A stretch of DNA of 64,000 nucleotides. It comes from Bacteroidales bacterium. Its GTDB lineage: Bacteria > Bacteroidota > Bacteroidia > Bacteroidales > UBA932. Position 1 is the first letter of the stretch, and the number at the start of each line of letters is the position of its first letter. Below are positions 1 to 21,887 of this stretch, piece after piece. The notes under the pieces are model-generated. The model saw only the letters and a program-made list of their open reading frames with translations, had not been told where the DNA came from and did not search any database. The stretch is from assembly GCA_017445755.1 (NCBI GenBank), contig JAFSSE010000035.1, positions 1 to 64,000 of the forward strand. The letters are read 5' to 3'. Both the position numbers and the translations under genes were made by a program.

Positions 1-129
1 AGGGGTATGGGGTGCCGGGGGGCTTGTCCACCCCCGGACAAGTATAGGGGGAGGGGCCCGCCGCGAAGCGGTGGGAGGGGCCGGAGTGGAGCGAAGCGGA
101 ACGGAGTCCCCCCGGCATCCCATACCCCT
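1..129 (+). repeat. GC-rich foldable intergenic element, copy 1
   Basis: Positions 1-22 pair with 108-129 as a 22-bp closing stem with a single G-T wobble. Inside are a 7-bp hairpin (CTTGTCC 23-29 with GGACAAG 36-42) and an 8-bp hairpin (57-64 with 68-75, loop GAA). GGGAGGGGCC occurs twice (49-58, 73-82), each followed by GCGAAGCGG (63-71, 91-99). The stretch 72-105 matches the minus strand of 20714-20748 at about 28 of 35 positions, although the closing stems of the two elements are unrelated. It may be a structured RNA or a REP-like dispersed repeat. The left end may continue beyond the window. Confidence 0.7.
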
Positions 130-135
130 CCCTAC

Positions 136-173
136 AAAAAAGAGAGGTCGACCGTTAAGTCGACCTCTCTTTT
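136..173 (-). terminator. intrinsic terminator of the exbB-exbD operon
   Basis: A perfect 15-bp stem (138-152 with 159-173) has the 6-base loop CGTTAA. On the minus strand it is followed by a run of six T. It lies 17 bases past the stop of the last ExbD gene. The A/T flanks are symmetrical, so it could also stop transcription arriving from the left. Confidence 0.92.
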
Positions 174-20663: not shown

Positions 20664-20693
20664 ATTCAATCAGTTATTTATTAAGCAATCCCG

Positions 20694-20797
20694 AATGATA
20701 AACTGCTTTGCTTTCCGTGCCGCCTCGCTGAAGCTTCGGCCCCTCCCAAAACCTTTACTTCTCCTTCAAAAGCAAGCTTTTTCCGCAGTTTATCATT
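20694..20797 (-). repeat. foldable intergenic element, copy 2 (prfA-queF)
   Basis: AATGATAAACTGC (20694-20706) is the exact complement of GCAGTTTATCATT (20785-20797). The stem can continue after a left-hand bulge through AAAGCA/TGCTTT. Inside, the minus strand of 20714-20748 repeats the core of the 1-129 element: TGGGAGGGGCCG, then AGCGAGGCGG, then ACGGA. The right arm contains the prfA stop codon. The closing stem sequence is unrelated to that of copy 1, yet both pair, which suggests a conserved RNA fold. It may act as an attenuator, a processing site or a small RNA. Confidence 0.68.
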
Positions 20798-21887
20798 CAC
20801 CGGCTTCCTTCAGGCGTTCTGCGTTTTCGGCAATCTGGAGCTGTTCGATACACTCCTGGATGTCGCCGTCCATGAAGACCGGGAGGTTATACATGGACCA
20901 GCCGATGCGGTGGTCTGTAACCCGTCCCTGCGGGTAATTGTAGGTGCGGATTTTGGCAGAGCGGTCGCCTGTGGAGACCATGGTCTTGCGCTTTGCCGCG
21001 ATTCCGTCGAGGTATTTCTGGTGCTCCATGTTGTAGAGGCGCGTACGCAGCTCTTCCATGGCCCTGTCCAGGTTCTTCAACTGGGAGCGCTCCTCCTGGC
21101 ACTGGACCACGATTCCGGAGGGAATATGGGTCAGGCGGACGGCGGAATAGGTCGTGTTGACGCCCTGGCCGCCGGGACCGGAGGCGCAGAAGAGGTCTTT
21201 CCGGATATCGGCGGGATTCAGCTCGATGTCGAATTCTCCGGCTTCCGGGAAGACGGCCACCGAAGCGGCGGAAGTCTGGATACGACCCTGGGTTTCGGTC
21301 TGGGGAACCCTCTGTACGCGGTGGACTCCGGATTCATATTTCATGATGCCGTAAACGCCCTCGGAGGAGCTGGACAGCTTGAAGACAATCTGCTTGAAGC
21401 CGCCGGAAGTACCGGGCGCCTGGTCGGTAACCTCCAGTTTCCATCCCTTTTTCTCGGCGAATTTTGAATACATGCGGAAGAGGTCGCCGGCGAAAATCGC
21501 CGCTTCGTCACCGCCGGTGCCGCCGCGTATTTCGACCATGGCGTTCTTCGAGTCGTCCGGGTCGGCCGGAATAAGCATGAGTTTTATCTCCTGCTCCAGG
21601 GCCGGAATCTTCGGCTCTATCTCCGCAATTTCCTCACGGGCCATCTCACGGAGGTCTTCATCCTTTTCGTTCATGAAGAGGTCTTTCGCCTGGGAGAGTT
21701 CGTCTGTGAGGCGTTTATATTCGAGCCCGGCCTTGATAATGGGTTCGAGCTGCTTGTAATCCTTGTTCAGCTGGACAAATTTCTTCATGTCCGCTATCAC
21801 CTCGGGCTCGGCGAGCTGGGCTTCCAGCGCCTTGTACTTGTCCTGAAGTCCCAGAACCTTTTCGAGGAGTGTATTGTTGTCTGCCAT
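20793..21887 (-). CDS. prfA: peptide chain release factor 1
   Basis: A 364-residue RF1. The ribosome catalytic GGQ is in [12 protein letters not shown] (about residue 230). The stop-codon recognition region reads [11 protein letters not shown], with PQT where E. coli has PAT; I believe this is usual in Bacteroidota RF1. The N-terminal coiled helical domain and the C-terminal [23 protein letters not shown] block are intact. RF1 terminates at UAA and UAG, which matters for the UAG inside leuS. It has its own promoter (-7 box 21907-21914) and is divergent from a small ORF. Confidence 0.95.

Follow-up and report, generated by a model that had tools for sequence, protein, structure and literature searches.

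Two copies of one repeat family in the window

The window, i.e. the whole stretch of 64,000 nucleotides that was analysed, contains a complete copy of a fold-back repeat at positions 1-129 and a truncated copy of the same family on the minus strand at 20693-20798. Base 1 of the window is the exact end of contig C10, which belongs to a 2.18-Mb draft genome consisting of 44 contigs. The following features were assigned:

1-22, plus strand: left arm of the closing stem of copy 1, pairing with 108-129; it starts at the contig end
23-42, plus strand: hairpin 1 of copy 1 (CTTGTCC-ACCCCC-GGACAAG), from the sequence and covariation in the family
31-35, plus strand: hairpin-1 loop CCCCC of copy 1, the 5' side of the pseudoknot, from loop/linker covariation
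47-51, plus strand: linker GGGGG of copy 1, the 3' side of the pseudoknot, followed by AGGGGCCC (sequence, covariation)
57-75, plus strand: hairpin 2 of copy 1 (CCCGCCGC-GAA-GCGGTGGG), variable in length and sequence across the family (sequence, covariation)
76-107, plus strand: 3' core AGGGGCC and purine-rich tail with GCGAAGC of copy 1 (alignments A1 and A2)
108-129, plus strand: right arm of the closing stem of copy 1, pairing with 1-22
20693-20706, minus strand: closing-stem arm of the truncated copy 2 (minus-strand 3' arm); plus-strand GAATGATAAACTGC pairs with 20785-20798
20707-20784, minus strand: core of copy 2 with hairpin 2, GGGAGGGGCC and tail, lacking hairpin 1 and the pseudoknot (match to L001)
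20785-20798, minus strand: other closing-stem arm of the truncated copy 2, holding the stop codon of the ORF 20793-21887 (stem pairing, ORF list)

The similarity of the two copies had been noticed in a first-pass annotation, which counted about 28 matches over 35 positions between bases 72-105 and the minus strand of 20714-20748; 29 aligned positions were found to agree. As annotated, the outer stem of copy 1 comprises 22 nearly perfect base pairs (21 Watson-Crick pairs and one G.T), and the fold of positions 1-129 reached -86.3 kcal/mol with a z value of -5.7 against shuffles. Copy 2 does possess a closing stem (z -4.5), but it measures 14 bp, or 15 bp when folded, and not the 13 bp given previously. 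This copy is nearly identical across about 70 nt to copy L001 of the same genome, and it yielded no covariance-model match at E 0.01. The exact 12-mer TGGGAGGGGCCG was detected at eight places in the genome, compared to two for the reversed control. At six of these eight places it is surrounded by a long copy-specific stem; of the remaining two, one is cut by a contig end and the other shares an arm with a tandem neighbour.

Two further structures were observed. A terminator-like bidirectional hairpin (AAAAAAGAGAGGTCGAC...GTCGACCTCTCTTTT) is located directly 3' of copy 1 at window positions 136-173, and stretch L006 contains a tandem pair of copies with one common stem arm at about 1390-1700.

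Architecture and covariation

The element comprises five recurring parts: a closing stem, hairpin 1 (loop of six bases), a linker able to pair with this loop, hairpin 2, and GGGAGGG(G) followed by a tail. Hairpin 2 varies in length, and the tail is itself a hairpin in some subfamilies. The tail sequence differs between subfamilies, and AGGGGCC is part of a block that does not vary in alignments A1 and A2. In the full element, the core is enclosed by a closing stem of about 22-28 bp that differs from copy to copy, resulting in a unit of roughly 120-200 bp. Across 91 distinct stems, Watson-Crick pairing reached at least 89% at every one of the first 14 positions, positions 9-16 were strongly variable in base, and pairing faded beyond about 27 bp.

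Covariation was analyzed with two alignments. Alignment A1 contains 46 of 59 picked copies and copy 2; its 3' tails were poorly aligned and A2, comprising the 22 subfamily-II copies whose core measures 77 nt, was used in its place. In A2, 24 of the 43 pairs vary on both sides, with 170 such cells compared to 49.6 after shuffling and at most 16 in slid controls. The proportion of paired cells was 98.6% versus 80.6% (shuffled) and at most 45.1% (slid), which bears out the earlier suggestion of a conserved core within covarying stems. The pseudoknot is invariant within A2 and was therefore assessed across subfamilies, where the loop/linker variants CCCTC/GAGGG, CCCCC/GGGGG, CCCAT/ATGGG, CCCGT/ACGGG and CCCTT/AAGGG occur. 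Both variable pairs were formed in 163 of 164 copies, whereas 1000 shuffles gave a mean of 113.7 and a maximum of 128; in this test the constant CCC/GGG was taken as given and related copies were counted separately. Hence, closing stem, hairpins and pseudoknot covary. As already supposed, the element does not correspond to a known Rfam family: no Rfam match above the gathering score was obtained in the window, and all matches listed elsewhere fell below the gathering scores.

A long form of the element was also seen, with an extra module of about 60 nt beside hairpin 1 and further G/C-rich pairings (L095, L120, L143, L147, L157, L162, L181). The possibility that the closing stem is wholly derived from the target was rejected for the inner ~22 bp, since groups of copies share a consensus stem. 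A few outer stem bases may nevertheless be copied from it.

Distribution of the family

The element is dispersed mainly within one Bacteroidales family. A search pattern allowing up to one mismatch was present in 12 of the 61 genomes of the genus sample, including the genome under study. The strict pattern revealed at least 120 stretches in the genome collection. Among the 120 listed stretches, 118 are labelled as Bacteroidales or Bacteroidia, many of them with names referring to rumen, reticulum or omasum. Script extraction over the collected loci yielded 143 hits, of which 141 were untruncated, 136 had hairpin 1 and 132 reached a stem score of at least 10. For further analyses, 128 copies with hairpin 1 and a stem score of at least 12 were used; three duplicates reduce this set to 125 distinct copies. 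Two of the 120 stretches, both from other phyla, were rejected as members, L099 from a Treponema MAG, which gave no model match at E 0.01, and L085 from Myxococcales, whose model match reached only E 0.0058. Both are contained in the script extraction, L099 also among the 128 copies. Carriage by phages was rejected as well, as the strict pattern had no exact match in viral contigs.

The covariance model built from the 22 copies of A2 detected the element in 50 of the 61 genus-sample genomes at E 1e-3, with 21 matches in the genome under study and a maximum of 46, so that the further copies to be expected of a family do exist. At E 1e-5, 31 of 119 genomes and nine of 25 genera of the family sample were positive. 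The order sample gave four of 295 genomes and four of 183 genera; the genome under study is counted in both samples. Copies can be missed by these searches since stricter filters were applied and a limited number of candidates was scored per genome. All 21 matches at 20 hand-picked places of the genus sample had the loop, the linker and a GGGAGGG-type core, and the architecture is kept in members beyond the genus (L210, L211, L212, L219).

Position within protein genes

An ORF spanning the element with at least 30 codons on each side was found for 84 of the 128 extracted and 83 of the 125 distinct copies, though some of these ORFs may not be genes. Sixty of the 125 distinct copies lie in frame within 18 identified gene families, in both orientations; others lie between genes. 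The families were defined by blastp grouping of the flanking protein (at least 60 residues), resulting in 14 usable families with at least two copies, and by Pfam support for four single copies; gene names are a reading of Pfam names and sequence. The distinct copies reside in truA (nine), a PLP aminotransferase gene (eight), a family-2 glycosyltransferase gene (seven), genes of the ygiQ type and of an ABC ATPase (five each), murB (four), rsmA and a SpoU-type methylase gene (three each). Two copies each were assigned to truB, genes of the yggS, ribF and miaB types, and those for a FAD-dependent protein and a 2-oxoacid acyltransferase, and one copy each to genes for an amidohydrolase, a Methyltransf_4 protein, a Pterin_bind protein and a PG_1098-type protein.

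Pfam matches across the element or on both sides were obtained for 16 of 20 scanned proteins, the second side being deduced from a second stretch in the case of L177, L036 and L158; L116, L020, L088 and L022 gave a one-sided match only. For L086, L102 (at 5075), L160, L175, L084 and L162, the choice of the longest ORF probably met the wrong strand, and flank similarity assigns them to truA, murB or the SpoU-type methylase gene. These copies are outside the count of 60 and inside the count of 83.

A truA match was present in 57 of the 61 genomes. The TruA loop preceding the motif RFLRNMVRA, compared at 30 loci, is short in many cases and longer in others, which contain this element or other repeats. 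The solved TruA structure (1dj0) aligns at both sides of the insert. AlphaFold, run with eight sequences, produced a poor model (mean pLDDT 55.7) in which the insert, among the least certain parts, is predicted between two strands. In other species (L046, L048, L049, L050), apparent in-frame repeat peptides were seen in this loop, namely CHSERSEES, SRLDRES, SSEVEKS and VIPGLTGNP (twice). On account of these peptides, the TruA loop may be a general landing place.

The reading frame was mostly retained, as 500 of 551 orthologous comparisons gave gap length differences divisible by three. The other 51 count against the explanation favoured below. Per query element, 49 of 75 had no frame exception; of the 26 with exceptions, ten belong to gene sites that give zero with other partners, and the remaining sixteen to sites lacking a gene assignment. 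The one exception that was closely inspected, L084, is a true frameshift just after the element.

The copies avoid stop codons. On average, 3.83 of the six frames were open in the 83 copies within ORFs, compared to 2.26 in dinucleotide shuffles; this figure is partly circular since these copies were chosen for openness. The 42 copies outside ORFs, which were not so chosen, gave 3.29 versus 2.03. When the element was inverted in silico, the host frame was still open in 59 of 84 cases, with 30.9 expected.

Dispersal and inversion in place

Genome G037 contains seven copies of 152 nt whose 15 best pairs are 98-100% identical, with some flanks unrelated and some shared. Near-identical copies at unrelated places of one genome indicate recent dispersal. 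Together with the in-frame genic copies in both orientations and with inversion at orthologous sites, they also modify the earlier interpretation as a structured RNA family: covariation and core are real, but the family consists of dispersed repeats that look mobile, not of stationary ncRNA genes.

Among 102 orthologous pairs with both sites occupied, 44 had the element in opposite orientations; the pairs overlap, and three of them lie within G037. Of the 18 site groups, 12 contained two copies with 36 or more of 44 stem letters in common, and 11 were followed after exclusion of one from G037 alone. Both orientations occurred in five of these 11 groups (truA, the glycosyltransferase, the ygiQ type and two sites without gene assignment). 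The other six had a single orientation, which again weighs against the preferred explanation. Six of the 18 site groups are devoid of any similar-stem pair, and at such sites the copies may have entered the same loop independently, which likewise speaks against it.

At one site, L101 and L093 are identical in 117 of 117 core-sense letters but oppositely oriented between flanks of 89% identity. Compared with L093 and L106, the outermost mismatched pair of L101 (G and T) was flipped together with the core, from which it follows that the whole unit turned and that the break was outside this pair. An inversion of the core alone between fixed arms is thus unsupported for L101. Remnants were found as well: L045 retains a coreless stem in truA, L042 one arm of the stem, and L157 part of the element in murB. 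Several 'empty' sites near enough for comparison resemble such deletion remnants, a further point to the disadvantage of the explanation given below. Beside the stem at the glycosyltransferase site, a short piece of host sequence recurs in mirrored form on the other side, as GGTTCGG/CCGAACC in L120 and GGCTCTGC/GCAGAGCC in L260. In a check for target-site duplications, for which the element ends are approximate, flank copies were found at one site; they are short and inverted, not direct.

Maintenance of the stem and strand preference

In 21 same-orientation pairs with a flank identity of at least 82%, 55 stem cells had changed on both sides and were still paired, while four changed on both sides were unpaired. 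One-sided changes stayed within standard or G.U pairs in 18 cells, led to A.C in three and to other combinations in 11. As the 21 pairs overlap, these changes are not independent events. On the core-sense strand, G.T mismatches prevailed over A.C mismatches by 61 to 24 when counted by distinct context (p 7e-5). The direction was the same for copies that lie antisense to their host ORF (22 to 10, p 0.05). Stricter pooling gave 37 to 22 (p 0.07), and one copy per cluster 12 to 7 (p 0.36). This gives moderate support to the view that one strand is under selection irrespective of transcription by the host.

At one site (L252, L261, L272), the element was seen to be identical (121/121) in three species whose flanks are 86-89% identical. 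Identical orthologous copies amid such flanks exceed the conservation predicted by a freely drifting stem and count against the best explanation.

Possible mobilizing enzymes

Y1 transposases were detected in 46 of the 61 genus-sample genomes. The Y1_Tnp domain was present in 44 of 50 element-bearing versus two of 11 element-free genomes (Fisher p 1.3e-5), an association confounded by shared ancestry and genome completeness, and six element-bearing genomes had no Y1 match. Reverse transcriptase was rejected as mobilizer since it was not associated with the element (17/50 versus 2/11 genomes, p 0.48). In 20 hand-picked Y1 neighbourhoods, taken from many more Y1 matches, no credible copy was found; the lone match at E up to 1 near Y1 genes was a 28-nt hairpin with E 0.82. 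The first-pass annotation had named a match to a known REP/MITE family with transposase-linked ends as evidence that would overturn its reading, and neither a known family nor such a linkage emerged. By eye, Y1-type genes of the genus have their own short inverted repeats nearby, which do not resemble the element (L230, L241, L242, L245, L248).

Interpretation of the data

The element is probably a non-autonomous selfish fold-back element that is adapted to life within coding sequence. It would spread as a folded single strand of core sense, either ssDNA or RNA, by an enzyme acting in trans, and its stem pairing would be kept by selection on the single-strand fold. Due to stop avoidance, insertions in protein loops could survive as translated peptides. 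Inversion in place might arise when the element is excised and reinserted, or when recombination occurs at the stem's outer end, much as in hairpin inversions of other DNA. Points against this explanation, besides those named above, are that no enzyme is linked to the element and that the strand preference weakens once related stems are pooled.

A Y1 transposase of the RAYT type moving a REP-like element in trans would complete this explanation rather than replace it, but is proposed only tentatively. The co-occurrence of Y1_Tnp, not shared by reverse transcriptase, is in line with this enzyme, and a one-strand preference would fit ssDNA transposition. On the other hand, the 20 neighbourhoods were devoid of credible copies, and the confounded association and the six genomes lacking a Y1 match argue against it. 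It is conceivable, though unlikely, that the element is a self-propagating fold for which Bacteroidales protein genes are reversible niches. Selection would then act on the folded strand, and orientation switching via excision and reinsertion would swap loop peptides, possibly within populations. To our knowledge, excision-reinsertion of this kind has been described for no short bacterial repeat.

The copies could also be neutral relics of old insertions, whose arms are kept complementary, and whose loop is flipped, by template switching from arm to arm and not by selection. Processes of this type have been put forward, as hairpin inversions are described for plastids (PMC6005162) and template switching has been proposed for coding palindromes of Nematomorpha (PMC6649704), and the mirrored host sequence next to the stem in L120 and L260 would fit them. 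However, pseudoknot and hairpin 2 covary too, the excess of G.T over A.C by distinct context, albeit weaker under stricter pooling, is not predicted by conversion alone, and in L101 the break was outside the outermost mismatched pair. Neutral persistence is therefore regarded as improbable. A structured RNA beneficial to the host, e.g. a regulator or attenuator of host genes, might explain the strong structural constraint and the identical copies in three species, but is very unlikely in view of the many unrelated host genes, the occurrence of both orientations even at one site, the remnants at the same site and the intergenic copies. Removal of the element from the mRNA by self-splicing, or its skipping by the ribosome, so that the protein lacks the peptide, would suit a highly structured core within conserved housekeeping enzymes, yet it is very unlikely, since removal does not require the largely kept frame and the stop avoidance of intragenic copies and an antisense copy would lose the RNA catalyst in the host transcript.

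Relation to known repeats

The closest kind of element are the Rickettsia palindromic elements (RPEs) and the Wolbachia palindromic elements (WPEs), palindromic repeats of 100-150 bp that occur in frame within genes and elsewhere and, in rickettsial orthologs, as inserts at the same locus (PMC10969869, PMC3767692). In-frame palindromic insertions have been described for Rickettsia and Wolbachia, and a review of 2024 considered similar insertion in other prokaryotes conceivable (PMC10969869). The Bacteroidales repeat, too, is found in frame within genes (60 of 125 distinct copies) and elsewhere. Compared by description, it differs from RPEs in belonging to a different phylum, in its pseudoknotted core and in its opposite orientations at orthologous sites. 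Moreover, RPEs are reported to lose their repeat identity over time (PMC6649704), whereas the Bacteroidales stem is kept by paired changes and no such loss was seen at orthologous sites. The element is accordingly classified as an RPE analogue that has its own architecture, not as one of the RPEs.

REP elements are likewise short palindromic repeats, some of them within genes, and Y1 transposases are common in the genus sample, but REPs measure 20-40 bp (PMC3733652), in contrast to roughly 120-200 bp with an internal core, and none of the 20 Y1 neighbourhoods contained a credible copy. MITEs are short, non-autonomous, have inverted-repeat ends and can make in-frame fusions (PMC10969869). The Bacteroidales element shares these properties, being apparently non-autonomous; its terminal repeats, though, are copy-specific and not shared ends, and searches for Y1 and reverse transcriptase disclosed no parent transposon. 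Like the hairpin inversions of plastids, which take place at the hairpin and are discussed for non-coding DNA (PMC6005162), the element inverts in place, but it does so also in frame within genes, and one flipped unit included an outer mismatch. No report of this repeat family was found among the titles, abstract openings and best-ranked results of the open-access literature.

For gut and rumen bacteria, the family provides a large natural comparative data set on in-frame insertion: orthologous sites in truA, murB and other genes show gains, inversions and remnants of the element. In practical terms, contigs of MAGs can end within such elements, as the contig of the window does. With this data set, the life of a selfish element in housekeeping genes, the upkeep of pairing in a hypervariable stem and the tolerance of protein loops for about 30-65 added residues become testable.
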